Source of the DNA: a virus
IMG/VR virus record: IMGVR_UViG_3300031812_000001
Span: 1 to 64,000 of that record
Strand: one strand, 5' to 3'
Length of the DNA stretch: 64,000 nt
The position numbers and the translations under genes are program-made. Positions 8,521-35,292 of this stretch are shown here, in pieces (the stretch's first letter is position 1; every line of letters begins with the position of its first letter). The notes below the pieces were generated by a model that was given only the letters and a program-made list of their open reading frames with translations, ran no database searches and had not been told where the DNA came from.

Positions 8521-8550
8521 TGCGTCTCAGCAAGCGAATCGGCATTGTCA

Positions 8551-12606: not shown

Positions 12607-12682
12607 ATGGACATCGCCATGACGCCGAATCGCAAGACCGAAAGGCCATTGCAGGTCAAATTCCAATTTTCGGAGGACCGGT

Positions 12683-14257: not shown

Positions 14258-15072
14258 TTGGAACAACCACCGCCCTACTGCTGGCCGGAGGGCTTGGACT
14301 CGGAGGCAAGGCCTTATCCTCTCTCATTACATCAAGGGCAGCCCAGCAAGCAGCGGAAACTCAAGCCAGAGCCGCGCAGCACGCCGAAGATGTTGCCAAC
14401 ACGCAGGCGGGCTATATCTACGACACCGCCATGAGCATCAAGGACAACATCCTGGATGCAGGGAAGGAGGCGCAAGAGAAGCTCTCGGGGTCCTACGGAG
14501 AGGGACGCAAGGCCCTGTCTCCCTACATTCAGGCCGGGGAAGAGTCCCTCGGCGGACTTCTGAATCTTGCCCAAAAGGGCCTCTCTGCGCAAGACGTGTA
14601 CGCCGACCCAGGCTATCAGTTCCGGTTGCAGGAGGGCGAGAAGGCGCTTCAGCGCTCAGCGGCAGCCAAGGGTGGAGCGCTTGGCGGCGCAGCGACGAAG
14701 GCGCTGGCCCGATACTCACAGGGACTCGCCTCTCAAGAATACCAGAACGCATTCAACCGAAAGTATGGCCTGCTGTCAACCATTACCGGCTTTGGACGGT
14801 CGGCGGCGTCAGAGGCGGCGGACCTTGCTCGATGGTACGGAACAACGTCCGCCACCTCCAAAATGGACACGGCGGTAAAGGCCGGACAGTTCGCTATGGG
14901 CGGAACGAGCGAGGCGGCAAACATGCGGCTCCGTGGCGCCGAATACGGCATCGCCGGAGCAAACGCAAGAGCAGCCGGAACGGTCGGATCTGGCAATGCT
15001 TGGGCGGCTGGCATTGGCGGGGCTACAAAATCAATCCAGGACGTGCTCATTCTTCAAGCGCTCTTGAAGTAA
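14254..15072 (+). CDS. DNA ejection (injection) protein, P22 gp7-like position
   Basis: A 272-residue protein. It starts with a Gly/Leu-rich hydrophobic segment (ALLLAGGLGLGGKAL), continues with an Ala/Gln coiled region, and contains YADPGYQFRLQEGEKALQRS, GGALGGAATKALARYSQG and ASQEYQNAFNRKYG near 115-170. That block recurs in many podovirus DNA transfer proteins. Ejection proteins leave the virion with the DNA and line or cross the cell envelope. It follows the GNAT gene directly and precedes a second ejection-like protein. Confidence 0.72.
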   Translation: MIGTTTALLLAGGLGLGGKALSSLITSRAAQQAAETQARAAQHAEDVANTQAGYIYDTAMSIKDNILDAGKEAQEKLSGSYGEGRKALSPYIQAGEESLGGLLNLAQKGLSAQDVYADPGYQFRLQEGEKALQRSAAAKGGALGGAATKALARYSQGLASQEYQNAFNRKYGLLSTITGFGRSAASEAADLARWYGTTSATSKMDTAVKAGQFAMGGTSEAANMRLRGAEYGIAGANARAAGTVGSGNAWAAGIGGATKSIQDVLILQALLK

Positions 15073-15103
15073 ACCTAAGTTCAGAGAAAAGAAAGGAGAA
15101 ATC

Positions 15104-16666: not shown

Positions 16667-16674
16667 GAGGTTAG

Positions 16675-19600
16675 ATGTCGAACGTTCCTGCTTCCTTTAT
16701 CCCAGATCCAACCCCAGACGAGGTCAAAGCCGAACTGCAACGGGCCGCTCAGCGCTATGGGGTTGACCCGAACCTCGTGATAAGGGTTGCCCGTCAAGAG
16801 AGCGGCTTCCGAGCGGACCTTGCCAGTCCCAAAAACGCCCTGGGCATTATGCAACTTTTGCCCGGCACGGCCAGAGACCTTGGGGTTGATCCCGCAGACT
16901 GGCGGCAAAACATTGACGGCGGCGTTCGGTACCTCAGGCAAATGCTGAACCGCTATCAAGGCGATCTTCAAAAGGCTCTTGCCGCCTACAATGCCGGCAT
17001 GAAGAACGTGGACCGATACGGCGGGGTTCCACCGTTCGAGGAAACGCGCAAGTATGTGAGGGCAATTACCGGAACCCCGGCCACCTTTATTCCAGATGAA
17101 GGAAGCAAACCAACCGAGACCAAAGACCCGGCGCCCGGATATCGGGAGCCGAAGAGTTTCTCTCTGGACGAGACCTTCCAGGCGCCAGCGGCGGATGGAT
17201 TCCCGGAAGGCGTCGAGTCCGAGTCCAAGCCCCCAGAACCATTCGCTGGCCGAATTCCGAGCGCGGATGAGATTGAGGCTGCGTCCATACGTATCAGCAC
17301 GCTGAAGACCGTTCTGCAAAGCCAAGCGGAGGAACTTCGGAAGCGACAACAAGAACTCGCAAAAGAAGCGGAGCGCCTTAACTCCGTGGGGGCCACGCCT
17401 GAGCAGCTACAGGACTTCCAGCGCCGAGTCATGCTTCACGATGCGGACCGAATGCAACTGGAGCATGGCTTGAGGTCCCTTGAGGAACAGGTGAAGGATT
17501 ACAACGCCGGGGTTTCAGCCTTCCAGGAAAACCTCAAGCGGTATGAGAGCCTGACTGTCCCGCCGGGCGCGGAGAAAACCGGGCTCCCCGGCGTCCCGAT
17601 GCAGGTTCGTGAACCATCGAGAGGCGTTCCAGCCCAGGTGAAGGTCGGCAGGGGCGGCGCCGAATATGGCTACGTTCCGCCGGAAGATGTCCCAAAGGGC
17701 GAGTTTCGGGACTACATGACCAAGGTTTTCACGGGCCAAGTTGTTGATGAAGCCCTCGCCCCCAAGCCAACCGACACCACCGCCGAGTCCATCGCAAAGG
17801 GTGTCGTTAAGGTCGGCCTTGGCCTTGTCAGTCCTCAGGCATTGGCCACGATGTTGGCCGCCGGGGGACTCGCGGGCGCCCTTCGTGCAGCCGTGAATTC
17901 TCCGAAAGTAGCCAATGCCTTGAGCCGCCTCCCCAATTTTACTGGGATCATGAAGGCCACAGAGGTTGCCGCTGAGACTGCGGTCCCGGCGGCCTTTACC
18001 GCTCTGGCCGGAAAAGGCGCAGTAGAAGGAGCCCTTGCCACAAAATCGGCCTTCGAGAAAGGCGAGACCCCTGCTGCAACCCAGTACACGGTAGAGACCA
18101 TCGCCAATGCAATTTTGGCCGCGCTGGGCGCCGCTGGAACAGCGAAGGCATACCTCAGAACAACTGAGGCATACCCGGCTGGGCCGATACCGGAGTCCGA
18201 CGCCGCCAGATACAGAAGGCTGAAGACCGGAGTTCAAGAGGGTTCGGCCCTTATGCGGTCTGGCCGAACAATGGCTGCGAAGGCTTGGCTGGAACAGGCA
18301 AGGCGGATTGCAGAAGAAGATTGGGCCAAGGTGTTTTCCGAGCCGATTCGACTACAGCTTGGTCAAAAGGTGGTCCGGGTAGAGTTTGCCGGCTCCACTC
18401 AGCCGAAGACCCATGATATGCGTGGTAGGCCCATATTCCAGGTTGTGGACGAGTCAACCGGAGCCATATTGACCAGTGGCGAACCATCAAGCGTCGCGCA
18501 TTACCTTGAACATAGAGGGGCCAAACGGATCGCTGCGCCCAAAGAGGAAGACGTTGCAAGCAAAATCGCAGAACTTGAGGATGAACTTGCGGATGCCCGA
18601 GCTGCGGTTGAAAGTCGAAATTGGATCAGGACTGCCTCAGAGCAAGAGCTTCTGAAAGAAAAGGATCGGCTGGAGCGCTTCCTTGCAAAGGTCAGGGAAG
18701 TCAAGTCTTCGGGCCAAACCCCGAAAGATGAGGCTACGGTCTTTTCTGTTCAGCAAGATCTTGAACTGATTTCCCGTCGCCTTGCCGGGAAAGACGTTCC
18801 GCCAGACACGTTTTCGGAGCTGGAGGTCAAGGAACTCGAAGCTGAAATCAACAGACTGCGATCAAAGCCGGATGCCGCGCAGGGCGGCAGCGCCACTCCC
18901 CAGACCCCCGGCACAGAACCGGCGCAAGCGCCGGGCGCAGAGCCGATGCCAGAGCCGGGAAAGGTTTATCTGGGAAGGGCTGGAGAGGTTAAGGTCGTTG
19001 AGGTCAAGGATGGCCACGTACGCTTTGAGCGCACGATTGGCAAAACCACCGTCATTGGCACCATGCCGCTGGATTCCTTCCAGCGTAGTTTCACGAGGCT
19101 GCCTGAAACTGGTCAGGCGCCAGCCAGCGCGACGCAGACTCAGCAGCAACGGCCAGAGACCGGAACTCCGACCAGCGAGACGCCGCAGGCGCAATCATCC
19201 ACAGCCCCATCCGAACCCGAGTCTACAGAACCGCCAACCACCCCAGAGGGAAGAATTGCCGATCACAAAAATCCTCAACCGGGCGACGTGTTTGAGATTC
19301 CGGGAGCCGGAAAGTTCCACGTCACGAACGTTGATTCGGAACGGGTCTACTATGATTTCTACCCGCACAACAAGAACAACAAGGTCAACAGGGGCCTTTC
19401 ATTAGAACGCTCTGTGTTTGCCGGCTACAAGAGCATCAGGCCAGTTCTGTTCGAGCCCACGCAAGCCACAACTGCTGGCGCCGCCCAGTCCCATGAGGGG
19501 GCGGTCAGGGCGCGTTTGCCTCGTGATCTGGCCGGAGCCACCCCTCGCTACAACTACGGTTCGAAGTCATTTGAACTCCAGTTTGAGTCTGATCTTGACC

Positions 19601-22600
19601 GAGCCGCCTACATCGCCGCTCAACCCAAGCCGTCCAAGCGCGACGAAGACTACGTGCGCTTTGTATCCGAAGCGACTGGGATGAGCGAAGATGAGGTTCG
19701 GGCATACGGCAGACGAGTTCGAGACGCGATTAAGGGGTTGGCCAAGGGCTCAGAGTCGGGCAAGTTATTGATTCCTGATGATATCTCCGGCCAATTCCTG
19801 AGGCCGACCGCTCAAACTCCAGTGGGGGCCACGCAGACCCAGCCCGCTCCTCAGGAAGGTCCGGCTGCCCAATCCACCGAACCAGCCACAGCCGTCCAGT
19901 CCCAGACCACCGAACAGACAGGTGCGCCGTCACAAGCGGAGTCCCCCACTGTTCAAAGCGCTCTACCGGAACCGCAGCCCGGTCAGGTCTACGAGGACGA
20001 TTCCGGGTTAGTGAAGATCGTTGAGGTTCGTGATGGCCGGGTTGTCTATGAAGACGCCAGGGGCAGCGGGGACCGCTGGACCAGAGGACTGGAGGCGTTC
20101 CTCAAAACCTTCCGTGGTCCGATTTTGCCCGCCCCCTCCGGGCCACGGGCGTCGTCTTCTGCGGCCCACACGGCTCCAGTAACGCCAGCTCCGACCGTTC
20201 GGCCAACGGCGACAACTGAGCCAGCTCAAACTGGCCAGCCCACCGAGACCACCAAAACCCCTGCGTCTTTCATCCCTGACGAACCACAGCAGGCAGCCGA
20301 ACCCCAGGCCGCCGAGACTACAGAACAGCAGGCCGGGGCCACGCTGGTTCAACCCCCCGCTCTGCCGTCTCAGCCTGAATCTAAGACTACCGAGACTCCA
20401 ATTCAGACCGAGGGGATCTCGACCCCAGCAACGTTTGTCCCGGACCAGCGGATAGCATCGGGAGCGGAGTCTCCGTCACCTGCGAGGGGCGCATCCACGA
20501 ATCGAAGGATTGAAGACCTCAAGGCCAAGATCAACATACTGGAGGGCGCCAACGCGAGACTTCTCGCGGCCTTCGCAGACAAGGATCACCCCGCCATTGT
20601 CGAGAACAACCAGAGCATTTCAGGGGCCAGAAAAGAACTGGAGCGTCTCCAGTCAGAAGGAGCCGCTCCACAGGAACCGACGCGGACCGAATCACCGCTG
20701 CCAGAGCTGGAACGCCAGATCGTCGAGCTGGAAAGCGACCTGAGGGATGCCTCTGCCAGGTATGAGCAGGCCGACGAATACACGGTAGCCAGGGAAGAAG
20801 CTCTCCGCGACATGTACGAGATCTCCACAAAGCTAGACGCGCTTCGTCAAGAGGCGTCCCGGTTTAATCCGCTTCTGGTGGAACAAGAGGGTGCGCACCC
20901 ACACCTTGGACTGCCAGAAATTCCACGGGGGAAGGACAGCTTCTACGACAGCATGATGGCTGAGGTCCCAGACTTGGCACATGCGGCCTCAGAGTCCTAT
21001 GGCTACGAATACGAAAAATGGCTTAAGGGCGGCAAGAGCGGCTCTCCGCCAAAGATCCCTTCCGGGACTGAGGTTGTGCAGAGGGAGTTTGCTGAGTACC
21101 CGGAGAAGTGGCGCAAGGCCGCCGCCCGCCGGTTCGACAACCGGTTCCTGGAAGACGCCCGGAATTTCTTGCAAGGCCTATATCGAGAGGGGGACATTTC
21201 AGAACTTCCTCCTGAATTGTTCCCCGAAGAGGCGGCATCCAAGCCACAGCCAACCCCCGCTGAACAGCTCCCGGCCCAGCCGGAGGGGGCCGGTCTACAG
21301 GAGCCTGAACCCCAAGCCGCCGAGACTTCTGAACCGGAATCCAGGTCTCCCGCCGAGACAGCGGCGCAGCCGTCTCCGCTGGCACAGATGACGCCAGCCG
21401 CCGCTCAGCCCACAGAGGCCAGCCTGCGCCCCTTTGCCGGCGCCGCCGAGTCCGTCATGGCGCAAGGCCCGTTCTCCAGAGCCACCCCGCCAGTGGGAAC
21501 TCCAGAGAGGCAGGCGATGGTCGAGGGGGTGGAGAATGCCAGGAAAGACTACGAGCAGAAAGTCTGGGCTCTCAATGATCTCTATCGGGATCTGAACAAA
21601 ACAAGTCCCAGGAGCCCGCTCTACTCGGAGATTGAGGACAAGATCTCCAGGCAGGCGATGGTCGTTGATGCCGCCAAAGAAGAACTGGAGGCCAAGAGAA
21701 GGTCTGTCGGCCTCGCCTTGCTCGAAGATGCGGCTGAAGCCAGCGGCAGTCCATTTCACAAAATCCTCGGACACTTGCACCGATTCGGGACTGACCTAAC
21801 TCAAGACCAAAGGAATGTTCTCCTTCGGGCAGCGGAAGAGGAAGTCCGCAGGCTCATGGCGCAGGTCAACACTGGCGGCTTAAGGTACGATGCCGAACTT
21901 ACTCCGGAACAGCGAGAGCGGTCCATCCGCGCCGCCGCGCACGGTGTCGTCGCCCGCGCCCATGAGAATCCAGAGGTTGCGGCCAAACCGCTGACTCCAG
22001 AGGACCTAGCAACTGAAATTGACCGGCAACAGGACGAGATCTTTGCAGAAAAAGTCAAGGACCAGATCCGTGAAATCGCTCGGGAGCTTCGTGAGGCGGG
22101 CATAGACGGCGCGGACGAGATCAGCCGGCTCGTTGACTTTGTTCTACCGGGAGAAGATCATCGCGGGAGCCTGGAGAGTGCTCGGGCTAGAGCCAAGGAA
22201 TTGAGGGAGAAACACGAGCAACGGGAACGGGAAAAAGCAGAGCGACAGAAATCTTTGATCGAGTCTCTGAAACCCCTGTCCGAGGCCCCGAAAGGGACGT
22301 GGAAGGATTGGGGCGGAACGGCCTCTGCTCCCGGGCGTTTGGTTACAGATGGAGTTTTTATCTTTGATCGAGAGGCAGTAAAGACAAAGATCCCGGACTC
22401 TGTTCTCAAGCGACAAGAGGGCAAGCGCGAGGTATCACAGGAGGATGCGCGAAAACTCTGGACTCAAATCGTTGGGTCTGCCGGACAAGAACTGGTTCCG
22501 CTAGGGGCCGTCGCGGACCCGGAGCGCTCGTATTCCGACTTTGCGTTCTTTGCAACCCCTGATGGAACCAAGCTATATCCTGCCCCGCTCAAGCTTGTCA

Positions 22601-25600
22601 AACTTGCTTTTGACAAGATCGGCGCCACGTCTGCGCGCTCCGCTCTTCATAGATATAGGGGTCAGGGTCGGACCGCAGATGCCATAGTTTTCTACAAAGG
22701 AGACGTTCCGCTTGCCCTGTGCTTGACGGCGCGAACCGACATCTATTTCGACCCCAAGCTGGCGATGGAGCGTCTCGGCATTCCAGTGGCTCCCCAACAG
22801 GCCAGCGGCCCCAATGCGGTGGATGAGATTCTGTCCCAGTACAGCGTGGTGCGCTCGACCCCTAGAGCGGGCGCCGAAAGGCGCGAACAGCTTGAGCAGA
22901 AACTCAAGGAGGCCCGCCAGAAGTACGAAGAGGCGCTCAGGGTGGAGCAGGCTCTCACCAAGGAACTAAGGAAAGAAGGGTCGATAGAGAAAAGAAAGCT
23001 CATCGAGGGGCGTCTCGAAAAGGCTGAAAATGATACCACTGAAACCAAAATCAAGTTTGATCAACTGAATGTCGAGTCTTTGGTTGCGGCCATAGAAGAC
23101 GCGGCGGAACAACATCAAGATCGACTCGCAAGGCTTAGCGCCTTCCTGAACCTGTTCGGCGAACTCATCGAATCGAAAGAGCATCAATGGAAGGCCATTA
23201 ACTCCGAGCTGGAGAAAGAGGCCCTACAATACCTCTGGTCTATCGCCACCGACCTTGACCCACACCTGACAGACGAACAGCGAAAGCAATCAAGGCAAGA
23301 AGCGGCCCGCACGCTTGTTCGCGCCGTCGGGCATGATCAGGAGGCCGCAGCCGACCCGCGGTCCGCGCTGAAAGGGCGGCTAGATCGGAACCAGCGCTCT
23401 TACATTGAACGGTGGGTCAAAGAGCAGGTTCAGCAAATCAAGGAATCCCTATGGGAAGAGCACGGCATTGTTCTTCCTGAAATCGAAGAGTTCCAACTCA
23501 ACCCCGACGTAAACCCGCTGGAAGAATTCGAGAAGATCAAGCAAAGGGCCTCCCAGAAGATAGCAGAACTGTATGAGGCTCCGGGGACCTCGCTGTTCCA
23601 GCAACCCGCAGAGACAAGGCAGCCAGAACCGGAACCGGAACCAGAACCAAAACCGAGTTCCCCGCCGTCCGGCGCCGAAACCGAGGCTCAAGGCCAGCCC
23701 GTCGCCATTCCAAACGAGATCCGGTCCATACTCTTGAAGTATCCGGTCGTCAGAACAACCCCTGCGCCGGGAACCCCGGAAAGGGAGCGGCTCCAGAGCC
23801 AATATCAGAAGGCCGATGACACCTATGCCGGACTGGTGAATGCGGTGGCCCATGCCAAGCGCGATCTGGGGAAATACCCCAGGGGCAGCAAGCGGTATGC
23901 CCTTGTGCAGAAGAGGCTTGAAAGGGCCGAAGAGAAGCAGGACGAATCCTTCCGAAAACTGAGGGAGCTTCGGGATCTCTTGCGTCAAGCCGAGCTGGAA
24001 GACTGGGCCCTGCAAGACGACAACCCACTCATAAAGGTCGGAAGCCACCTGTGGCTGCTCGGAGAACTGATGTTGCCTGACGACGCAAGCGAGCTCAGAG
24101 AATGGGTAGAGCGCCAGGCGTTCCGTCTGGTTCGCGCTGCAACGGACGATCAGTATGCGCCACACCTGACGCCGGAGGAATTGGAGCGGAGCAGGGAGAA
24201 TGCGGCGCGGGAGCTTGCTTCCGAGATCATGAAAGCGTCTCCCGATATAGCTGCAAATCCGGTCGCAAGGGCCAACAAGTGGTTTACCCTAAGCAATAGA
24301 GACAAGCTGCTGCGGAAGGCGACCCTGGAAATCAGGGAGATGCTGGGGCGCCTCCGCAGGGACTATGGATTTGACAGCCAAGAACTAAAAGACATTGCGG
24401 AGCAGCTCCGCATACTGACCATTGATCCGATCAAGGCCCTGGAAAAGGCTCGCAGTTACTTCGACGACACCATCAAGACGCTTGACAATCAGCGGGATGC
24501 CTACACCCTGAGGCTCAAGCCGGTTCCGGCTCACGAGTCGTACGTGTCAGGGTGGCCTGGAAACCTTGTTAAGCCTGGACGATTCATTGGAGACAGGGAC
24601 CGCGGCATAGACTCAAGGGCGTTGCCAGAGGAAATCAGGGCCGAGCTTTCGGAGGCGCAGGAGGGGGAGACTCCGCAGATCGACCAAAGCGAGATTGAGG
24701 TTTTGTTCGAGAGGGCCTTATCCGAACCCAAGACCCCGTTGGCTTCACTGGGAATTGTGGATGGGGCGCTTGCTTATTACGCAGAACCAGGTGGGAGCGC
24801 TGCTTACGCCATACCCGCACGAATCGCCACGCTAGCTGAAAACGTGATGGGGGCCGACGAGATCAGTTTGTTCGAGTGGGCCATGACCCCCCGCGTGGTG
24901 TTCTTCCGCTCGGGCAAGCCGGTTGCTGTAGCTTCGGCTGTTCAGGATGCGCCAAGGATCAACCCAAGACTCGCCCTAGACAGGGCAATGGGCACGAAGA
25001 CGGTCCAGGCTGGATGGTCTCCGCGTTGGACGGAAACGGTCCCGGAAGAACTCAAGAAGAACTTTGGCGGAAGCGCGTGGCGCTACTTTGAGAGACTCCG
25101 GCATCAAGCCAGGGGGCTCTTGGCTTTCATTGAGGCGTTCCCGCAGCATGAGACAGAAGCCCGCTGGACACCCGGCGCCGATAAGCTGCGCCAAGAGAAT
25201 CAGAGGCGCATAGACGCCGCCAAGCAGCAATACGTCAGCGTGTTGGCTGATGCGGAGAAGAACCTTGGCCGTGAGGCGCGCGAGTTGCTTCATGACCAGG
25301 TTATGAGAAAGAGTCCGCTGATGCCCCCTGGAGACCCAGAAGCATTTGATGACTTCTGGAACGGGCTTCGGGTGAACGACAGGATTGCCGTCCCGAATGG
25401 GGTTATCCGGGTCACCGACGTGGAATCGCTATCGCTTCAGGCGGTTGTCCCCGGCGTCGGTTCGTTCGGGTTGCCCTCCAGGAGAGTGACGAAGATTGCG
25501 GCCCACGTGCCGGGCGAGGATGGCGCAAAGTTCTTCTCAAGTTCCGATCTGAAGTCCTACCTGTATCCTGGATCGGGTGTTTCCGGGGCGGACTCGATCC

Positions 25601-28600
25601 CGAGCCAGTCTCCGCAGCCGACGCCGGCCAAAAGTGAGAGTCCGTCGCGCTATGCCTTGAGCGGCGACACATACCGGCACCGGCAACAGATCAAGAAGCT
25701 TGGGGGCAGGTGGATTCCAGAGGAAAAAGTCTGGGTGATCCCAGCCGAAAATGTATCCAAGGCACAAAGGCTGTCCCGCAAGATTGAGATCAAGCCGTAC
25801 TGGGGCAAGGAACAGGCCACGGAAGGGGCAAAGGCAGCAACGCCGGAACCGCTCCCGCCGCAGGCGCCGAAGGAAGAGGCGGAGAATCCAAACCATCGGC
25901 CCGAGCGTGTGCTGGCGAAGGCCAAAGAGATCCTCTCAAAGTTGACGGATTCTCAGTGGACTGGCATCCGCCACGGCATGTTCCCGGCAGAGGTCATGGA
26001 TGAGGCCAGGGCGCAAGGGTATGACATGCCGGCCCTTACGAAGACTTTGATGGAGCTGGCATCCAAGAGGAAACGCAGCGCGCTAGAGGCCGAAGAGGAA
26101 GAAAATGAAAGGCTGACAATCCTTTTTGCGATTGACAAGCGGGGGCCGATTGAGGTGTCGGAGCTGTTGGGTCTGCCTGAAGTGTCTGGCATCAAGCACA
26201 CTCGCGTGCTTGATCACCTCTATCGGATGGAGTTCCACGGGCTTGTCAAGGAAGTTGAGGACGAAACATACGTCCTGACTGACACTGGACGATTGATGAT
26301 TTCCAGTGGGTCAGAGACCACGGAAGGCGAACTTCCAAGCCCAAGCGGAGGGTTCACATACGAAATCCTGGTGAACGGCTCTTGGCAGCCGTCTGGTGCG
26401 GTCTTTGAGTCCAAGGAAGACGCTGAAATAGCCGCCACGTCTGAGCTGTCGCGGCTGCGGGAGTCGGAGGACTACCGGATCATTGAGCTCAACCAGGGTG
26501 CGCCAATCGACCAAGAGGTCGTCGCCGAACTGAAGCGCAAAGGAACGGCGCAGCGGGGCGATGTTTCGGCCAAGATCGTGGTGCATCCGTCCATCGTAGG
26601 CGCGCCGGAAGCCGGGGAAGCACACTGGGCGGTCGAGCTTACCGCCGGCGGAAACCGGCAGATGCTGGAAGCGGAACCGATGACGTTCGAGCAGGCCGTG
26701 GAGTCGGCGGCCCGCGCTCTTGCGGAATCTGCTGGAAGTACAATCACTAAGGGGGATCAGTCTCATGGCGAAACCCAAACCGAAACAGATCAACCAGGAC
26801 GAAGACCCGGATCTGACTCTGGAAGTCGTCCGCAAAATGTCCGACGAGGAAGCCAAGGCCAATCTCAAGCACGTCCCGCTGAGCCTGACGATTCTAAAGC
26901 ATTGGCGGGAGTTCTGTCCGAAAACCTATCGGAGTCTCAAGCGGGCAGGGCGCCTTCACAGCACGGTGCTGGAGCGGGCGATCATGACGATAGAGCTGGC
27001 GTGCAGTCTGTGGAAGGACGGACTGGACGCGGTTCGGGCGCGGGAGATAGCCGACCGGGAGTACTGGCTTCTCACGGACAAAGAGCTGTTTCCGTAGACG
27101 CCACCCCAACCGGAAACATTGAGGGCGACTTCCATCTGAGCGTTGAGGAAGCCGTCCGGATCGAAACCGGCGGGGCCAAAACCAAGGCTCGCAACAACCT
27201 CGAAGCGATTCGTATCGCCAAGCAACTGATCGAAGAGAAGCGTCCGGCAACCCCAGAAGAACAGGAAAAGCTGGCCAGGTTTGTCGGCTGGGGCGACGCC
27301 GAACTGGTGACCGGCATGTTCACCGCCCGGGATAGTAGTTGGGACGAGCTGCGCGGGCAAATGGACAGCCTGTTGACCCTGGAGGAATATGAGGCGGCGC
27401 GGCTATCAACCCTTAACGCGCATTACACCAGGCGGGACTTGGCCTTCGAAATGTGGCAGCTTGCCAAGAGGCTTGGTTTCCGGGCCGGAGGGACTGTGCT
27501 GGAGCCGGGCATGGGCGTCGGCAACTTCTTCATGGTGATGCCGAAGGACTTAATGCCGGGAACGCGCAGGGTCGGCGTGGAGATGGACGAGCTAACGGGC
27601 GCGATTGCCAAGGCTCTATTCCCGAACTCGACCGTCCTCATCGAGCCCTTCCAGAAGACCTCCCTGCCGGACAACTACTTCGACCTGGTAATCGGAAACG
27701 TTCCGTTTGGGAAAATCGAGGTTGTTGATCCGGCGTTCAGGCGCGAACCGTTCATCACCAGAAACATCCACAACTACTTCCTGGCCAAGTCTCTGCTTAA
27801 GCTGCGTCCGGGCGGAGTGTTGATTGCCATTACATCGCGGCACACGATGGACGCCAAGACGGGCAAGTGGTTCCGGGCCTGGATGTCGGAAAGGGCAGAG
27901 CTGTTGGGCGCAATTCGTCTGCCGCGTGAAACCTTCCAGCGCAATGCCGGGACATCGGTTACGACCGACATTTTGGTCCTTCGCAAGAGGGTTCCGGGAG
28001 AAGCCCCGATCTCCAGTGAAACATGGATCGAGGCGCCGGAGATCACTACTGAGGACGGCCAGGAAACCTTCAGCATCAACGAGTACTTCTACCGCCACCC
28101 GGAAATGATGATGGGGGTGATGAGGCCGGGACAGCAGTACCGCAGGGGATACCCCGAATTGTTCGGAGTATTCAGCATTAAACACCTGACGGATCTGTTT
28201 GAGAAGTTCCCAGAAAACGTGATTCCAAGCTGGAGTGAGACCAGCCGCGCCGAGGCGGTTTCCGAACAGGCTTACCCGGACGCCAGGTTCATCAAGGAGG
28301 GCCAGTTTGCCATCGTCAATGGACAGGTGGTCCAGAAAGACGGACTGCATTTGAGGCCGGTGGTCGAGAGCAAGCAAAAGCTGGAGAGGATCAAGGGCAT
28401 GATTGAAATCCGCGGAGCCGCCCGAGAAGTGATCCGAACCCAGCTTTACAGCGACGACGACGCCGAGCTTGCAAAGGCGCAGAAGGAACTGAATGAGGTC
28501 TACGACCGCTTCGTTAAGCAGCACGGCTACATCAATGACCCCAGGAACGCCAAAGCCATGTCCGAAGACCCGGACTGGCCCCTTCTGTCTGCTCTCGAAA

Positions 28601-31600
28601 ACTGGGACCCGGTGAATAAGACCGCCACAAAGAGCGACCTTTTCTCTCGCAGGACCATCCACAAGCCGAAGCCCGTTGAAAAGGTTGACACCGCGCGGGA
28701 GGCGCTGGCGGTGAGTCTGGCGGAAACCGCTTCGGTGAACTGGGAGAGGATGAAGCAGCTTACCGGAAAGTCCGAATCAGAGCTGCAAGCAGAACTTACA
28801 GGGCTGGTATTCAAGGACCCATTAACGAACAACTGGGTCACGGCGGACCTTTACCTCAGTGGAAACGTCAGGCAAAAACTCCGGGATGCCGAGTTTGCGG
28901 CTCAGAGGGACCCATACTACCAAGTCAACGTGGATGCGCTCAGAAAGGTTCAGCCCAAAGAACTCAATCCGTCTGAAATTGATGCCGTCGTTGGCGCAAC
29001 GTGGATTCCGGATGAGATCTACAGCAGATTCCTGCAAGAAACGTTTGGGGCCAGCACGAGGGAAAGCGAAAAACCTGTACAGCAGGTTCCAATTTTGGGC
29101 ACTTTCGTTGTGGCGAGGGACATAGTTGTTAGGAGCAGAGCCGCCAACGAGCTTGAGTATGGCACGCCCTATTTCACTGGAGTCGATCTTTTCACCCTAG
29201 CCTTGCACAAGAGGGTTCCCGTGGCCTACGACTACATCCGAGTCCCAACGGGTTCAGGAGGCTACCGGGATATAAGGGTGCGAAACAACGACGCCACCAT
29301 CGCCGCCGTGGAAAAGCAAATGAAGCTCATTGAGCGCTTCGAGCGGTGGTTCTGGGAAGACCCGGAGCGGGCCAAGGTGATGTCCGAGCTATACAATGAA
29401 CTGCGCAACAACTTGCGGTTCCCGGAGTTTGACGGAAGCCACCTTACGTTTCCTGGGTTGAATCGGGACTGGCTTAGGAACGGAAAGCCGGACAAGCACC
29501 AAGTGGACGGGGTTTGGAGGATCATTCAGGTTGGCAACACCCTTTTGGCCCACTCGGTTGGAAGCGGCAAGACCCTGACCATCATCATGGCAGTCATGGA
29601 GCTGCGCCGTCTGGGAATGGCGAGGAAGGCCATGATCATTGTCCCCAACCATTTGGTTGCTCACTGGGCGAGGGAATTCCTTCGGGCTTATCCGTCCGCT
29701 CAACTTCTGGTTCCAGACAAGGAGGACTATTCCCCCAAGAACCGGAAGAAGCTCATGGCCCGCATTGCGGTGGGGAACTTTGACGCGATCATTGTTCCGA
29801 TGTCGAGTTTTGAAAAGCTGCCCGTGAAGCGTGAAACCTACGAGAGGTTCATGCGGGAGCAGCTTGCGGAAATTGATGCTGCGATTGAGGAGCTCTCCCG
29901 GGGGTCTCAGGATGATGCCGAGCTGGGCACCAGAGCGAGTTCAAGCAGAAAAAAGCGCAAAAACGGCAATCCTACTGTCAGGCGGCTGGAGAAGCGCCGG
30001 GCGCAGATTATGGCGAGACTGGAAAAGCGCCTAAGGCAATGGGAAAAGGATGACGGGGTAACGTTTGAAGAACTGGGCGTGGACTGGCTGTTTGTGGACG
30101 AGGCCGACATGTACAAGAACCTCGGCTACATCAGTTCGATACGAAACGTAGCCGGCCTGCCGAACGCGGATGCGAACCGGTCCAACGATTTGCTCATGAA
30201 GGCCAGGCATGTCATGGGCTTGCATGGCGGACGCAGGGGACTGGTATTCGCAACCGGGACGCCCATTTCCAATACGCTGGCCGAAGTGTGGACCATGATG
30301 CGGTATCTGATGCCGGACTATTTGCATCAGGTCGGGTTCGATCAATTCGACGCATGGGCGGGCACGTTTGCCCAGCTCACCGCGCAGTTTGAGATTGCGC
30401 CGGAGTCAAACCGGCTGATGTCGCGCTTGAGGTTCCGCAGCTTCAACAATGCCCCAGAGCTCATGCAGATGTTCCGGCTGATTGCCGACGTGCGCACCAA
30501 GGAGCAGCTTGGACTGCCTTCCCCGCCGATCTATCAGGGGGGTCCGATCACGATCTCCGTTCCAGCGACCGAGGAACAGAAGGAGTACATCCGAAGTCTT
30601 GGAGATCGAGCCGACCAGATTCGATCTGGATTGGTTGAGCCCGAAGAAGACAACATGCTCAAGCTCTCCAGCGACGGACGCAAGGCCGCCCTGGACATGC
30701 GGCTGATTGATCCCAAGCTTCCAAGGAACCCAAACGGCAAGGTGCAGCGGGCCATAGAGAACATCTTGCAGATTGCCAAGGAGTTCGAACAATACAGGGC
30801 GACGCAGCTTGTGTTCTTGGATCTGTCGATCCCAAGGGCGGACGGGGGAGACGAGACCGGCGCGGGCGCCGAGGTTGAAGCAGGACCGGAAGCCGAGCGG
30901 TTCAACAGCGTCTATCACGACATCCGAAACGGACTAATTAAGGGCGGGATGAAGCCAAGCGAGGTTGTCTTCATCCACGACTTCAAAACCAAAGAGGCCC
31001 TGAATGACCTTTACAAAAAAATGAACTCCGGGGAGATCCGGGTTTTGATTGGAAGCCGGTCTAAGATGGGGCCGGGCATGAACGTCCAAGAGCGGCTGAT
31101 TGCAGTCCACCATCTGGATGTTCCGTGGCGTCCGCGAGATCTTGAGCAAGCCGACGGTCGCATTGAGCGCCCGGGGAACAAGCTGTGGGATGAGCACAAG
31201 ATTCCGGTTCGGATCTACCGCTACGTTACCGAGGGAACCTTTGATGCCTTCATGTGGGAGGCGGTCACCAGCAAGGCCAAGCCCATTGAAATGTTCATGA
31301 AAGGAGATACGTCCGTTCGACGGATTGAGGACGTTTCGGAGGTGGTTCTCAGTTACGAGCAGGCGAAGGCGCTGGCGAGCGGAAGCCCGTTGATCCGGGA
31401 AAACATCATCTTGGGCCAGGAGATCCGCAAACTGCAACTTCTCCATTCCCAATGGATGGAAGAAATACGCATGGCCGAAGGCCAGCTTGCCCAAAGGACC
31501 GCGCACTTAAAACGGGTGCGAGAGCAAATCCCGCTGTACCGAGAGGCGAGCGAGGAGATCAAAAACAACCAGACCTTTGAATGGGGCGACCACGTTTACA

Positions 31601-34600
31601 GCGGAGAAGACATCCGGGACAAGGGAATCCCGGCCATGATTGGGTACCTAAAGAGCCTTGGCCCAATCGAAACGAAAATGACGCTCCGGGGGAGATATCG
31701 CGGCTTTGACCTGTCTGCGGAGCCAAACAGCAGGGTATTCTTCACGATTACGCTGCATAGTGACAGCAATGGACTCAAGGCTGGAGTATATCATCACGAC
31801 AAGTCAAGCGGAAAAGTATACAAGGTAAAATCTAGGCGGCCAGACAGGAAATTCATAACAGTCAATGACATAATTTACGAGCAAGTCGAAGACCCTGAAG
31901 CGAAAGATAAGCTCATGAAAAGCGGCGGGGGAATGACCCTGGAGTCGCATTGGCCTCTGGATTACCCGAAGATTGAATTGAAACGCGGAACCATTAGCGA
32001 GTCTGTGGAGATTGACTACAATAATCCAGGCCGGACCCACAAATCCATTGATGCGGCATTGGAGAGGGTCGCCTCACGCGTCAAGGAACTTGAGGAAGAA
32101 GCCGACAACACCGAAAAAGACATTGTCAAGCTGGAGAGCATGAGGAACAAGCCCTTTGATCGGGCGGAAGAGCTGCAAAGGAAACTCCAGCGGAAGCAGG
32201 AACTAGAGGATCTGTTGGGGATGAATCGAACGGACGCGCAGGCTGCGGCTGCTGTGGAGCAAGCCTCCGAGGACGAGGTCTCGGAAGAAGTGGACGCGGC
32301 GGGCGACCGCGAGCCGGACGAAGCCGACGCGATTCGCGTCATGCAGAAAACGCCTGGCGTGCCTGTGCTTCCCGAGTGGTGCCGGTCCAGGATGATGATG
32401 GTGGAAACCGCCTATAATCACAAGGAGTCAAAGCAGGTTTACATGGTCGGCAGGTGGCTGGCGGCCTATCTAAGCGACAGAAGCACGCGCAGAAATAGGT
32501 GGAAAGTTGTTCACGCCGGGAGCGGAAAAGAAATAGCGTCGTTTGAATACCCCGCCGATGCTTCCTTGTTCGTGAAGACGCTCGAAGAGAAGATTCCCAG
32601 TGAGCTCTCACAGCCAGAGTTAAGCCATGAGGCTGAAGAGAAAATCTACAGGGAACTTAGGGAATACAAGCCCACGCACCTGGACCCAATGTCCATCTTC
32701 CAAAGAACCCTTGAAGATCTCCGGGCCAAGTGGCGCGAGCAGAGGGGGCTCAATGCGCCGCCGCAAGAGAATCGTCTCGGACCGGAGGCCGGCTCTGCGC
32801 CGATGCTTGTGGACCTGGCTCAATGGCTGGCGAACCGGTTTGGGTCGGACGCTCCGAAGGCGAACTATACCGGACTGGGCGCCTTTTCTTACGGCAAGGC
32901 AGTGGCCAAAAACTGGCTTGTGCGCAATCTATCCGTGCTTGAAAAGGTAAGCCCCGAGGCGCACGAGGCGGCGGTCCGGGCCGCCAGCGCAAAAGGTCAG
33001 GCCGTTGCGACCTTGCGCGCCGCCATCCCGCCCATACTGGATGCCCTGAAGGGCTCTGGTCACACATGGGAAGAGTTGCGGCTGGCCCTGATTGAATCTC
33101 GTCTGCGCGGCATCCGGCAGAGGTGGCTGAATCTTGCGGACCAAGCTGAGGAGATGACCGACGAACAGACCAAGCAAGCCTTCGATGATGCATTGGCCGA
33201 CCTGGTGTCGGAGATCAGCGGCCGGGCGGGGTTGCCGAAGGAAGCCATTCAGACCGCCGCGGCTCTAGCTGAGGCTCAAGAGTGGGAGGGACTGAGGTTG
33301 TTCCTGGCCGATCTGTTCCGAGACGCGGCCAGCCGGGTCGCCACAGTCATGGAAGAGGGCTGGTTCGATGAGGTCAGGAACGACCCGAATGTGCGGCGCG
33401 CGCTGCAAATCTACAAGAGCACGGTGGAGGCGGCAATGGCGGAAAGCCATGCCCTTAACGAGGGCATCTTCTCTGATGCGCTCGGGCCGCTTCAAACGTA
33501 TTACCCGTTGGTGCCAATCGGAAAAGAACGGCCATCGGCGCCGCTGCGCCGGGTTCCTTATCACAAGCCGAAGAACCTTGCGAATTACTTCGCCACAGGA
33601 TTGTCTGAGGCTTATGATGTCGGGATGGAATCGCTGCGTGACCGGCTGACGGCCAACATTTTGGCCAATGATCGGGCGCACCTATTGAGGGTCCTTGAAC
33701 AGGAAGGGCTCGTGACTCCGGCTGTCCCCGGTCAGAGGACGTTTATCGGCGAGAACGGTCAGGAATACCTTGGGGTTCGCGTGGAGATCCAGCCCGCAAG
33801 GACCATCATTCGGGAGACCGGGGAGGTGGTAAACATTCCTCCGAGAATGGGCGTCATGCCCGCCCAGCTTTATGGAGAACTAAAGCCGATTTTGGAGTCC
33901 GACAACTGGTCTAAGGCTGATGTCATAGCGCGGATCTTGAAAGCAGTCAATGAGTTGGCCCTGGTTGGACCGTTCGACTTCGTGTTCCACACGGCCAACC
34001 TGATGGGCACCCTGGTCGCCAATACCCCGTTTCTGGAAAAATCCATCCGGGGAGGGGTTCTGTCGCTTCCGGTATTGAAGCGCTTCTATGCCATCGTGAA
34101 ATCCGTCTCGACGGACCCGACGACAGAAGAGGCCGCACGGGACATCATTGAAATGGCAAAAATCGGACTCGTCCCAGACCGATATGCGTCCGTAACCTTC
34201 AGCAAGCGGTTGGCTGAAGAGCTGGGTGCGAAGCAAAGGTTCACCCTCGGTCCCATCCTGTACGGACCGAGGGGACTGGACATCCGCGCCAGGCTATTGA
34301 TGTACCGGTTGGCAAAAGAGATCAATCCGGATGCCGGAAAGCGGGAGATCCGGGAGTTCGTCAATCAACTTGGAAACTATGTTTTCTCGCTCCAGGGTGT
34401 GATCGAAAGGGCGCTGAAATCCACCTTCATCGCTCCGTTCTTCACCGCCGGAAGTTCCATGATCCGCAACGGGATTAACGCATGGCTTGGAACCGGTCCG
34501 ATTCCAAAGAAGGGACCGGCGCTTCGTCTCTACCAGCTTCTTGTCTCCGGTGCGATTGGGACGATTGCCCTGTGGGTGCTGGTTTACAACGCGCTCACGG

Positions 34601-35292
34601 GGAAATGGCCGTGGGAGGACCGCCGGGCGCGCTTGCTTCAGATTCCGGTTGGCGGAGGCGGTGGTCCGATTGACAAATACCGGCACTCGACCTTGGGCCG
34701 CCTGATGTGGGGAGCAGGAAACGAGGTCGGATACCTGAACTTCGGGTTCTTCAATCCCATCGTCACGCGCGGCGCCAGGGCGCTTGGGCTCCAGGAGGCA
34801 TTCAACACTCAAGCGCTGGGCGGAAATTTTGACCAGGCGCTGGAGGGCGCGGTCCGAGGCGCGATCAACACCTTTGCTCATCCGGCCTTAGGGCCGATCC
34901 CGAGGGCCACGTGGACGGCTCTTTCGGGGACCCGTCCGTATCTCACTGGCTACCGGGACATCACCGGCAGCATTTCGCCTCAATTTTACAGGGTGATCCC
35001 GCGTGACACGAAGCCTGGACGCGAAACGTTTGGTCGGATGCTGCTGGCCGGAACGTCCGAGGTAAACCCGTTCTATCAGTCCCTGGCTGAGGCGACCGGG
35101 CTGGTGGGGGCAGATCGTGAGAACCGGGGCAACGCATACTTGCGGATGATCCTAGACCTAACGGCGCCAGGTTTGGTTGGTGAAGCCTCAAAGTGGGAGG
35201 TTCGGGCGGAGACGCTGAGGAGGCAACAGCAACGGTTTTGGGGCCTTCGGTCTGGCCGCGTGCCGGACTTCAGCAAGGCATCTGGGTTCTAG
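16675..35292 (+). CDS. Giant 6205-residue polyvalent virion/ejection protein (transglycosylase, methylase-like, SNF2 helicase, membrane tail)
   Basis: One uninterrupted frame behind AGGAGG. Residues 20-125 are a soluble lytic transglycosylase with catalytic Glu42 in RQESGF and the GIMQLLPGTA and AAYNAG motifs. Then come coiled coils, a hydrophobic region (about 360-510), three SH3-like repeats (about 760, 865, 1100), three large repeated blocks opening with VVRSTP-type sequences (about 1602, 2058, 2358), a KLGGRWIPEEKVWVIP (DUF5710-like) module near 3005 and a winged helix near 3145-3205. A SAM-dependent methylase-like domain follows: VLEPGMGVGNF at 3608-3618 and NVPF at 3675. A SNF2-type helicase comes next (Walker A GSGKT at 4296-4300, DEAD-box-like DEAD at 4475-4478, motif VI region QADGRIERPG near 4830). 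The last ~1000 residues hold helices and a membrane segment (about 5952-5976). This domain mix defines phage polyvalent proteins (P1 DarB is one), injected with DNA to protect it. A separate gene is embedded at 26765-27097. Confidence 0.85.
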   Translation: MSNVPASFIPDPTPDEVKAELQRAAQRYGVDPNLVIRVARQESGFRADLASPKNALGIMQLLPGTARDLGVDPADWRQNIDGGVRYLRQMLNRYQGDLQKALAAYNAGMKNVDRYGGVPPFEETRKYVRAITGTPATFIPDEGSKPTETKDPAPGYREPKSFSLDETFQAPAADGFPEGVESESKPPEPFAGRIPSADEIEAASIRISTLKTVLQSQAEELRKRQQELAKEAERLNSVGATPEQLQDFQRRVMLHDADRMQLEHGLRSLEEQVKDYNAGVSAFQENLKRYESLTVPPGAEKTGLPGVPMQVREPSRGVPAQVKVGRGGAEYGYVPPEDVPKGEFRDYMTKVFTGQVVDEALAPKPTDTTAESIAKGVVKVGLGLVSPQALATMLAAGGLAGALRAAVNSPKVANALSRLPNFTGIMKATEVAAETAVPAAFTALAGKGAVEGALATKSAFEKGETPAATQYTVETIANAILAALGAAGTAKAYLRTTEAYPAGPIPESDAARYRRLKTGVQEGSALMRSGRTMAAKAWLEQARRIAEEDWAKVFSEPIRLQLGQKVVRVEFAGSTQPKTHDMRGRPIFQVVDESTGAILTSGEPSSVAHYLEHRGAKRIAAPKEEDVASKIAELEDELADARAAVESRNWIRTASEQELLKEKDRLERFLAKVREVKSSGQTPKDEATVFSVQQDLELISRRLAGKDVPPDTFSELEVKELEAEINRLRSKPDAAQGGSATPQTPGTEPAQAPGAEPMPEPGKVYLGRAGEVKVVEVKDGHVRFERTIGKTTVIGTMPLDSFQRSFTRLPETGQAPASATQTQQQRPETGTPTSETPQAQSSTAPSEPESTEPPTTPEGRIADHKNPQPGDVFEIPGAGKFHVTNVDSERVYYDFYPHNKNNKVNRGLSLERSVFAGYKSIRPVLFEPTQATTAGAAQSHEGAVRARLPRDLAGATPRYNYGSKSFELQFESDLDRAAYIAAQPKPSKRDEDYVRFVSEATGMSEDEVRAYGRRVRDAIKGLAKGSESGKLLIPDDISGQFLRPTAQTPVGATQTQPAPQEGPAAQSTEPATAVQSQTTEQTGAPSQAESPTVQSALPEPQPGQVYEDDSGLVKIVEVRDGRVVYEDARGSGDRWTRGLEAFLKTFRGPILPAPSGPRASSSAAHTAPVTPAPTVRPTATTEPAQTGQPTETTKTPASFIPDEPQQAAEPQAAETTEQQAGATLVQPPALPSQPESKTTETPIQTEGISTPATFVPDQRIASGAESPSPARGASTNRRIEDLKAKINILEGANARLLAAFADKDHPAIVENNQSISGARKELERLQSEGAAPQEPTRTESPLPELERQIVELESDLRDASARYEQADEYTVAREEALRDMYEISTKLDALRQEASRFNPLLVEQEGAHPHLGLPEIPRGKDSFYDSMMAEVPDLAHAASESYGYEYEKWLKGGKSGSPPKIPSGTEVVQREFAEYPEKWRKAAARRFDNRFLEDARNFLQGLYREGDISELPPELFPEEAASKPQPTPAEQLPAQPEGAGLQEPEPQAAETSEPESRSPAETAAQPSPLAQMTPAAAQPTEASLRPFAGAAESVMAQGPFSRATPPVGTPERQAMVEGVENARKDYEQKVWALNDLYRDLNKTSPRSPLYSEIEDKISRQAMVVDAAKEELEAKRRSVGLALLEDAAEASGSPFHKILGHLHRFGTDLTQDQRNVLLRAAEEEVRRLMAQVNTGGLRYDAELTPEQRERSIRAAAHGVVARAHENPEVAAKPLTPEDLATEIDRQQDEIFAEKVKDQIREIARELREAGIDGADEISRLVDFVLPGEDHRGSLESARARAKELREKHEQREREKAERQKSLIESLKPLSEAPKGTWKDWGGTASAPGRLVTDGVFIFDREAVKTKIPDSVLKRQEGKREVSQEDARKLWTQIVGSAGQELVPLGAVADPERSYSDFAFFATPDGTKLYPAPLKLVKLAFDKIGATSARSALHRYRGQGRTADAIVFYKGDVPLALCLTARTDIYFDPKLAMERLGIPVAPQQASGPNAVDEILSQYSVVRSTPRAGAERREQLEQKLKEARQKYEEALRVEQALTKELRKEGSIEKRKLIEGRLEKAENDTTETKIKFDQLNVESLVAAIEDAAEQHQDRLARLSAFLNLFGELIESKEHQWKAINSELEKEALQYLWSIATDLDPHLTDEQRKQSRQEAARTLVRAVGHDQEAAADPRSALKGRLDRNQRSYIERWVKEQVQQIKESLWEEHGIVLPEIEEFQLNPDVNPLEEFEKIKQRASQKIAELYEAPGTSLFQQPAETRQPEPEPEPEPKPSSPPSGAETEAQGQPVAIPNEIRSILLKYPVVRTTPAPGTPERERLQSQYQKADDTYAGLVNAVAHAKRDLGKYPRGSKRYALVQKRLERAEEKQDESFRKLRELRDLLRQAELEDWALQDDNPLIKVGSHLWLLGELMLPDDASELREWVERQAFRLVRAATDDQYAPHLTPEELERSRENAARELASEIMKASPDIAANPVARANKWFTLSNRDKLLRKATLEIREMLGRLRRDYGFDSQELKDIAEQLRILTIDPIKALEKARSYFDDTIKTLDNQRDAYTLRLKPVPAHESYVSGWPGNLVKPGRFIGDRDRGIDSRALPEEIRAELSEAQEGETPQIDQSEIEVLFERALSEPKTPLASLGIVDGALAYYAEPGGSAAYAIPARIATLAENVMGADEISLFEWAMTPRVVFFRSGKPVAVASAVQDAPRINPRLALDRAMGTKTVQAGWSPRWTETVPEELKKNFGGSAWRYFERLRHQARGLLAFIEAFPQHETEARWTPGADKLRQENQRRIDAAKQQYVSVLADAEKNLGREARELLHDQVMRKSPLMPPGDPEAFDDFWNGLRVNDRIAVPNGVIRVTDVESLSLQAVVPGVGSFGLPSRRVTKIAAHVPGEDGAKFFSSSDLKSYLYPGSGVSGADSIPSQSPQPTPAKSESPSRYALSGDTYRHRQQIKKLGGRWIPEEKVWVIPAENVSKAQRLSRKIEIKPYWGKEQATEGAKAATPEPLPPQAPKEEAENPNHRPERVLAKAKEILSKLTDSQWTGIRHGMFPAEVMDEARAQGYDMPALTKTLMELASKRKRSALEAEEEENERLTILFAIDKRGPIEVSELLGLPEVSGIKHTRVLDHLYRMEFHGLVKEVEDETYVLTDTGRLMISSGSETTEGELPSPSGGFTYEILVNGSWQPSGAVFESKEDAEIAATSELSRLRESEDYRIIELNQGAPIDQEVVAELKRKGTAQRGDVSAKIVVHPSIVGAPEAGEAHWAVELTAGGNRQMLEAEPMTFEQAVESAARALAESAGSTITKGDQSHGETQTETDQPGRRPGSDSGSRPQNVRRGSQGQSQARPAEPDDSKALAGVLSENLSESQAGRAPSQHGAGAGDHDDRAGVQSVEGRTGRGSGAGDSRPGVLASHGQRAVSVDATPTGNIEGDFHLSVEEAVRIETGGAKTKARNNLEAIRIAKQLIEEKRPATPEEQEKLARFVGWGDAELVTGMFTARDSSWDELRGQMDSLLTLEEYEAARLSTLNAHYTRRDLAFEMWQLAKRLGFRAGGTVLEPGMGVGNFFMVMPKDLMPGTRRVGVEMDELTGAIAKALFPNSTVLIEPFQKTSLPDNYFDLVIGNVPFGKIEVVDPAFRREPFITRNIHNYFLAKSLLKLRPGGVLIAITSRHTMDAKTGKWFRAWMSERAELLGAIRLPRETFQRNAGTSVTTDILVLRKRVPGEAPISSETWIEAPEITTEDGQETFSINEYFYRHPEMMMGVMRPGQQYRRGYPELFGVFSIKHLTDLFEKFPENVIPSWSETSRAEAVSEQAYPDARFIKEGQFAIVNGQVVQKDGLHLRPVVESKQKLERIKGMIEIRGAAREVIRTQLYSDDDAELAKAQKELNEVYDRFVKQHGYINDPRNAKAMSEDPDWPLLSALENWDPVNKTATKSDLFSRRTIHKPKPVEKVDTAREALAVSLAETASVNWERMKQLTGKSESELQAELTGLVFKDPLTNNWVTADLYLSGNVRQKLRDAEFAAQRDPYYQVNVDALRKVQPKELNPSEIDAVVGATWIPDEIYSRFLQETFGASTRESEKPVQQVPILGTFVVARDIVVRSRAANELEYGTPYFTGVDLFTLALHKRVPVAYDYIRVPTGSGGYRDIRVRNNDATIAAVEKQMKLIERFERWFWEDPERAKVMSELYNELRNNLRFPEFDGSHLTFPGLNRDWLRNGKPDKHQVDGVWRIIQVGNTLLAHSVGSGKTLTIIMAVMELRRLGMARKAMIIVPNHLVAHWAREFLRAYPSAQLLVPDKEDYSPKNRKKLMARIAVGNFDAIIVPMSSFEKLPVKRETYERFMREQLAEIDAAIEELSRGSQDDAELGTRASSSRKKRKNGNPTVRRLEKRRAQIMARLEKRLRQWEKDDGVTFEELGVDWLFVDEADMYKNLGYISSIRNVAGLPNADANRSNDLLMKARHVMGLHGGRRGLVFATGTPISNTLAEVWTMMRYLMPDYLHQVGFDQFDAWAGTFAQLTAQFEIAPESNRLMSRLRFRSFNNAPELMQMFRLIADVRTKEQLGLPSPPIYQGGPITISVPATEEQKEYIRSLGDRADQIRSGLVEPEEDNMLKLSSDGRKAALDMRLIDPKLPRNPNGKVQRAIENILQIAKEFEQYRATQLVFLDLSIPRADGGDETGAGAEVEAGPEAERFNSVYHDIRNGLIKGGMKPSEVVFIHDFKTKEALNDLYKKMNSGEIRVLIGSRSKMGPGMNVQERLIAVHHLDVPWRPRDLEQADGRIERPGNKLWDEHKIPVRIYRYVTEGTFDAFMWEAVTSKAKPIEMFMKGDTSVRRIEDVSEVVLSYEQAKALASGSPLIRENIILGQEIRKLQLLHSQWMEEIRMAEGQLAQRTAHLKRVREQIPLYREASEEIKNNQTFEWGDHVYSGEDIRDKGIPAMIGYLKSLGPIETKMTLRGRYRGFDLSAEPNSRVFFTITLHSDSNGLKAGVYHHDKSSGKVYKVKSRRPDRKFITVNDIIYEQVEDPEAKDKLMKSGGGMTLESHWPLDYPKIELKRGTISESVEIDYNNPGRTHKSIDAALERVASRVKELEEEADNTEKDIVKLESMRNKPFDRAEELQRKLQRKQELEDLLGMNRTDAQAAAAVEQASEDEVSEEVDAAGDREPDEADAIRVMQKTPGVPVLPEWCRSRMMMVETAYNHKESKQVYMVGRWLAAYLSDRSTRRNRWKVVHAGSGKEIASFEYPADASLFVKTLEEKIPSELSQPELSHEAEEKIYRELREYKPTHLDPMSIFQRTLEDLRAKWREQRGLNAPPQENRLGPEAGSAPMLVDLAQWLANRFGSDAPKANYTGLGAFSYGKAVAKNWLVRNLSVLEKVSPEAHEAAVRAASAKGQAVATLRAAIPPILDALKGSGHTWEELRLALIESRLRGIRQRWLNLADQAEEMTDEQTKQAFDDALADLVSEISGRAGLPKEAIQTAAALAEAQEWEGLRLFLADLFRDAASRVATVMEEGWFDEVRNDPNVRRALQIYKSTVEAAMAESHALNEGIFSDALGPLQTYYPLVPIGKERPSAPLRRVPYHKPKNLANYFATGLSEAYDVGMESLRDRLTANILANDRAHLLRVLEQEGLVTPAVPGQRTFIGENGQEYLGVRVEIQPARTIIRETGEVVNIPPRMGVMPAQLYGELKPILESDNWSKADVIARILKAVNELALVGPFDFVFHTANLMGTLVANTPFLEKSIRGGVLSLPVLKRFYAIVKSVSTDPTTEEAARDIIEMAKIGLVPDRYASVTFSKRLAEELGAKQRFTLGPILYGPRGLDIRARLLMYRLAKEINPDAGKREIREFVNQLGNYVFSLQGVIERALKSTFIAPFFTAGSSMIRNGINAWLGTGPIPKKGPALRLYQLLVSGAIGTIALWVLVYNALTGKWPWEDRRARLLQIPVGGGGGPIDKYRHSTLGRLMWGAGNEVGYLNFGFFNPIVTRGARALGLQEAFNTQALGGNFDQALEGAVRGAINTFAHPALGPIPRATWTALSGTRPYLTGYRDITGSISPQFYRVIPRDTKPGRETFGRMLLAGTSEVNPFYQSLAEATGLVGADRENRGNAYLRMILDLTAPGLVGEASKWEVRAETLRRQQQRFWGLRSGRVPDFSKASGF
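26765..27097 (+). CDS. Small basic protein encoded in another frame inside the giant gene
   Basis: A protein of 110 residues, frame +1 relative to the giant ORF, starting at the ATG at 26765 with AAGGGGGA about 9-11 bases upstream. It reads like a true protein (DLTLEVVRKMSDEEAKANL, then FCPKTYRSLKRAGRLHS, ending REYWLLTDKELFP), and normal codons are used throughout. The PKTYR..K.AG.L and EYWLL..E pattern recalls a family of small phage/mobile-element proteins of unknown role. Over the same bases the giant frame gives low-complexity Gly/Arg/Ser/Gln sequence, as expected for an out-of-frame shadow serving as a linker (residues about 3364-3474). I consider the small gene real. Confidence 0.7.
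   Translation: MAKPKPKQINQDEDPDLTLEVVRKMSDEEAKANLKHVPLSLTILKHWREFCPKTYRSLKRAGRLHSTVLERAIMTIELACSLWKDGLDAVRAREIADREYWLLTDKELFP

Follow-up and report, generated by a model that had tools for sequence, protein, structure and literature searches.

Evidence for a conserved TnpV-like gene nested in the +1 frame of DarB-like polyvalent protein genes

A small gene may lie out of frame within a larger gene and be read from its own start, as comS is inside srfA. Likewise, Rz/Rz1 consists of a small gene wholly inside a larger one, in another frame and with its own start (PMC10269572). The LPD36–methylase–SNF2 dyad was described by Iyer et al. 2017 (PMC5512222), and a nested gene is not mentioned in the searched passages of that paper. 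DarB-like polyvalent proteins of Bcep22-like and other phages join a methylase–SNF2 module to an SLT domain, while P1 DarB has neither an N-terminal extension ahead of the methylase nor a nested gene. TnpV (PF14198) of Gram-positive mobile elements has been described as a standalone gene, with a postulated Xis-like role in Tn4451-type elements (PMC3158075), and has been called a cargo transposase (PMC9815147). In contrast, we report here a family, sharing the helical domain of TnpV by profile comparison and likewise carried on mobile DNA, that lies out of frame inside methylase–SNF2 genes. Compared with Rz/Rz1 and comS/srfA, the partner is the gene of a giant multidomain enzyme, the overlap falls in a linker, and the same pairing is seen in phages, conjugative elements and Verrucomicrobia alike. 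No description of this nesting was found in the literature searched, mainly open-access papers.

The window analysed is a stretch of 64,000 nt, positions 1 to 64,000 of IMG/VR virus record IMGVR_UViG_3300031812_000001, and all features given below are on its plus strand. A giant gene of 6205 codons (16675–35292) encodes an N-terminal SLT lytic transglycosylase domain (PF01464; 16738–17049, residues 22–125 of the giant protein, Pfam E=3.4e-23) and, in mid-protein, a DarB-like methylase and SNF2 helicase. The segment at 27148–30699 matched the DarB-like phrog_10089 (E=0), and Pfam placed within it the core of an Eco57I-type adenine methylase (PF07669; 27664–27906) and that of an SNF2-related helicase (PF00176; 29398–29706); a weak match to the helicase C-terminal domain (PF00271; 30961–31176) fell under the curated cut-off. 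By these matches the giant protein is DarB-like, an adenine methylase being fused to an SNF2 helicase. From the alignment, and from the GXGU motif in the searched passages of PMC5512222, the sequence IETGGAKTK (27160–27186) would mark where the LPD36-like N-terminal region of the methylase begins. The giant protein thus resembles the polyvalent proteins of Bcep22-like and other phages and, unlike P1 DarB, has both the N-terminal extension and the nested gene.

The nested gene, P0001 (26765–27097), encodes 110 aa in the +1 frame of the giant ORF. An original prediction had proposed here a normal-looking protein with a ribosome site and a stop, and all its elements were present: an ATG, a Shine–Dalgarno-like AAGGGGG (26749–26755) 9 nt ahead of it, and a TAG stop. 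A +2-frame TAA (26748–26750) stands directly before the ribosome site, where the stop of an upstream gene sits in an ordinary operon. The giant frame, said to be of low complexity over exactly the bases 26765–27097, proved to be so: its linker under the nested gene (26767–27099) was of low complexity, free of stops and not conserved in amino acids. At around 26740, codon log-odds in 40-codon windows dropped in the giant frame (+0.33 to −0.19) and climbed in the +1 frame (−0.2 to +0.28), and they swapped back at around 27097. Read in the small frame, the nested gene had a GC content of 0.62/0.38/0.76 at codon positions 1, 2 and 3, as is normal for this genome; read in the giant frame, it gave 0.76/0.63/0.38. 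When the whole giant ORF was scanned with codon usage trained on the other genes of the window, the giant gene being left out, the nested gene was the sole extended stretch in which another frame won. These results, and most decisively the comparison with relatives given below, strongly support the claim of a gene in another frame within the linker of the giant gene, at the junction of a variable N-terminal module, here SLT, and the methylase–SNF2 module. Given the small protein, the probability of an open giant frame was 0.0015 under genome codon usage, 0.022 when the codons of P0001 itself were shuffled, and 0.025 with empirical windows as the null. In P0001, T was found at 0/29 third positions at risk of a giant-frame stop and at 13/52 other third positions (Fisher p=0.003).

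As a sole query, P0001 found no relative in phages, plasmids, or viral or genome contigs, which we attribute to its divergence. We then gathered 80 viral loci by the methylase domain alone and searched them by tblastn with P0001, followed by an iterated HMM. Of the 80 loci, 71 proved to have a P0001 homologue directly ahead of the methylase (E<1e-3); six more gave a weak match to the family (E<0.05), and in the last three (L026, L073 and L086) this position was occupied by a +1 ORF that was similar by eye. Only this methylase-gathered set gives an unbiased frequency of the nested gene, since many loci of the wider scan were found via the small gene and are biased towards carrying it; the loci are also related to one another. 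In all 85 scored cases the register was +1 relative to the methylase and the giant frame was open. The conserved domain corresponds to 26891–27073 within P0001 (family HMM, E=4.8e-19 after iteration), and a typical family member starts with MNLxNWI..AR.HWKE..P..Y.EL...G.L..AL..AAE.T. In PEp14, Pavtok, Stean, LASTA, SJM3, SopranoGao, Itty13, VvAW1, POI1126, Atu_ph08, Mwe-JY07, DC1, BcepIL02, USP_18 and JC1, the nested ORF lies under the annotation of the giant gene with no gene of its own, and it was absent from all annotations checked (RefSeq in part). No nested gene was detectable in methylases without the N-terminal extension (L002, L003 and P1 darB), nor a nested copy in the extended methylase gene of Streptococcus phage L180; the extended methylase genes L247 and L249 had no convincing copy. 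In Bacteroides phage BKO1-TP3 (L248), an 87-aa +1 ORF (3654–3917) at the equivalent place has no visible similarity to TnpV and is possibly a different nested gene.

P0001 itself matched no Pfam family at E≤0.1 and fell short of the 27-bit cut-off of TnpV (PF14198); it is therefore placed in TnpV via its relatives. Among 40 aligned family members, 22 matched TnpV at E≤0.1 (best, 4.9e-6), and the cut-off was exceeded by nested members of loci L126 (27.2 bits), L115 (39.1) and L201 (92.6), the values at nested loci in G001, G003 and G002 being 39.1, 28.4 and 27.3, respectively. The Gram-positive TnpV profile and the profile of the phage small protein, which may include a few Gram-positive phages, aligned with 99.0% probability in hhalign, with 1.5% for a reversed control. 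In Clostridia, canonical TnpV genes were in several cases nested +1 in methylase genes, and in plasmids of E. faecalis, Virgibacillus and Listeria a nested +1 TnpV lay beneath the annotation 'SNF2-related protein'. Genomes scanned with an alignment of the small protein, together with a set of sampled genomes, revealed the same nesting in proviruses and at many Verrucomicrobial loci. Judged by these occurrences, the arrangement is not specific to the phage of the window and is shared by phages, Gram-positive plasmids and elements, and Verrucomicrobia, and a widespread mobile-DNA family appears to have been overlooked inside related giant genes of phages, plasmids and bacteria. Other TnpV genes were standalone and annotated as such, some of them away from any methylase. 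Standalone small genes of the phage type with their own start were also found (L092 and L112), as were a few relatives whose methylase ORF has its start directly ahead of the small gene (L014, L036 and L051), so that relatives of the kind suggested for a search were recovered. In L112 (7974–8762, Pseudidiomarina), the small domain forms part of a fusion with a predicted membrane protein, away from any methylase. In Streptococcus suis, integrative elements with TnpV show a preference for insertion into snf2 genes (PMC9815147), a preference that may have some connection with nested TnpV.

We assign a probability of about 0.85 to the reading that P0001 is a true TnpV-superfamily gene, nested and internally initiated in the +1 frame of a DarB-like polyvalent gene whose own frame is read through as a linker. 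Ribosomes would initiate at the Shine–Dalgarno site of the nested gene on the giant-gene message, while those in the giant frame would pass through the overlap and make a disordered linker, so that every message could yield both proteins. Apart from the proteomics of phage JC1, the whole case is based on sequence.

Internal initiation agrees with the signals ahead of the nested start. A Shine–Dalgarno match of at least 4 nt was found at 71% of the nearest ATGs, approximately four times the 18% found at control ATGs, which were +1-frame ATGs elsewhere in the same genes, and a match of at least 5 nt at 45% against 4.5%; an obvious site was absent at 8 of the 85 chosen starts. This strong enrichment of a well-placed site and start argues against a programmed +1 frameshift before 26765, by which slipped ribosomes would end at 27097, yielding a protein that runs from the SLT domain to the TnpV-like domain, and the others would make the whole giant protein. 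Such slippage would be consistent with the invariable +1 register and with orf33 of Sinorhizobium phage PBC5 (L005), an upstream ORF that continues in frame into the small domain at its C-terminus. The giant gene of PBC5 is split into orf33 and orf23 (4949–11506 and 12163–20712), orf33 ending in the frame of the small gene. PBC5 is an exception, however, since its close relatives have one ORF, and the split may be a sequencing frameshift in the 2001 record. The open +1 frame upstream of the nested start has a median length of 25 codons and is closed by a stop within 6 codons in 14 of the 85 loci, which leaves almost no room for slipping, and the standalone small genes have starts of their own. 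We therefore regard frameshifting as very unlikely.

The state of the giant frame bears on a second alternative, in which separate genes lie on either side of the small one and chance or an assembly artefact accounts for the open giant frame. The few relatives whose methylase ORF opens directly ahead of the small gene are in keeping with it, as is the +2-frame TAA before the Shine–Dalgarno site, as if an upstream gene had once ended there. Over the small gene, however, the giant frame contained no stop in 84 of 84 loci, whereas simulation with the codon usage of each locus would leave approximately 5 loci open, at 3.8 stops per locus. When each 40%-identity cluster was represented by its least-surprising member, 30 of 30 were open against 3.0 expected, and in the AT-rich nested loci of Gram-positive elements there were no giant-frame stops against 7–13 expected. 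The comparison across 84 loci also ruled out sequencing error as the source of the open frame. Many finished phage genomes contain single giant ORFs, and the JC1 homologue of the giant protein was identified in purified virions by 51 unique peptides (PMC9144972). The JC1 giant gene contains the nested ORF, at positions 49303–49641 of the JC1 record, and these peptides indicate that in this phage group the product of a gene with the nested ORF is made and packaged; the nested protein itself would be detectable in such data only if the database searched had included it. Separate genes are thus highly improbable, and the distribution of stops over the 84 loci points to a giant frame that is kept open by selection and not by chance.

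The preferred reading, a nested gene within a giant frame that is read through, also accounts for how the overlap has changed. Codon-position conservation in relatives had been proposed as a check, and differences between close pairs were concentrated at third positions of the small frame, with 56, 32 and 140 at positions 1, 2 and 3, respectively. In the adjoining methylase, differences between close pairs fell at third positions of the giant frame. Over the overlap, most close pairs had a higher identity in the small frame than in the giant one, and the low-complexity giant frame showed no conservation of amino acids. No homologue was found with the opposite pattern, a broken +1 frame and a giant frame conserved as amino acids, which had been named as the refuting observation. 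Taken together with the absence of stops, the 56/32/140 pattern places the amino-acid constraint on the small frame and a no-stop constraint on the giant frame. A small frame that is untranslated, whether as a fossil or as an effect of the composition of the low-complexity linker, is hardly credible in view of a protein family conserved over very distant relatives, the substitutions at its third positions, the Shine–Dalgarno enrichment, the standalone homologues and the confident helical models. Substitution pattern and distribution show the conserved coding frame of 26765–27097 to be the small one, whose nesting and register persist in very distant relatives, and both frames are very probably translated. 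The locus would thus represent a conserved out-of-frame gene in one of the largest known gene families of phages and conjugative elements, and an unusually deep and countable example of a gene overlap that has persisted through wide divergence.

Modelling gave all-helical structures for P0001 and for a core family member (pLDDT 81 and 87). A PDB fold search with the small-protein models gave no significant match, and an NCBIfam search of the small protein nothing consistent. Repeated matches to the fold of the type IV secretion adaptors IcmS/IcmW had E>1 and TM of approximately 0.34, and are at most a lead. In a viral fold library, the sole significant match was PBC5 orf33 (E=3e-3). The same orf33 is the source of PHROG 938: the match of P0001 to phrog_938 'endolysin' traces to its in-frame fusion with the small domain, and a lysis function for the small gene was dropped.

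The nesting had been explained either by insertion of the small gene, the giant frame staying open by chance and selection, or by fusion of two proteins through this gene. The second history is favoured, as an event of long ago; of the first, the part ascribed to selection stood and that ascribed to chance did not. The codon structure of the small frame is normal, its helical fold is conserved and some of its homologues stand alone; it is therefore probably the older frame, and the giant-frame linker was probably overprinted on it as the methylase acquired its N-terminal extension. One ancient origin of the nesting fits the constant register without being proved by it, since repeated fusions would also give +1, the other register being closed by stops in the window sequence. 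In a first test, distances of the small domain and of the methylase were correlated with rho 0.57.

The constant tie of the small gene to the methylase–SNF2 module across phages, conjugative elements and Verrucomicrobia suggests that the small helical protein could be a partner of this module, as a helper, chaperone or restraint, a role that we put at somewhat below even odds. Against this role count the lack of a fold match in the PDB and the TnpV genes that stand alone, away from any methylase. A helper is plausible in that P1 DarB depends on other proteins and a DarA homologue was reported to be absent from phage CSP3 and its relatives (PMC10269572); for DarB-like proteins, the small protein may be the missing helper, and TnpV would acquire a new setting and a candidate partner. 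Tentatively, TnpV-like proteins might be dedicated partners of LPD36–methylase–SNF2 proteins, in a pair older than the exchange of the module among phages, conjugative elements and Verrucomicrobia. On this tentative proposal, the nesting itself would be selected, as it forces co-inheritance and co-production while the upstream modules (SLT, an ArdC-like part or a short clamp-motif tail) swap freely.

In Verrucomicrobia, the methylase–helicase gene has only approximately 1720 codons and starts just upstream of the small gene. The N-terminus of its product often carries a QLDLF-like motif ahead of the nested gene (L126 from 7925 onward, L123, L134 and L145), and these motifs resemble sliding-clamp binding sites.
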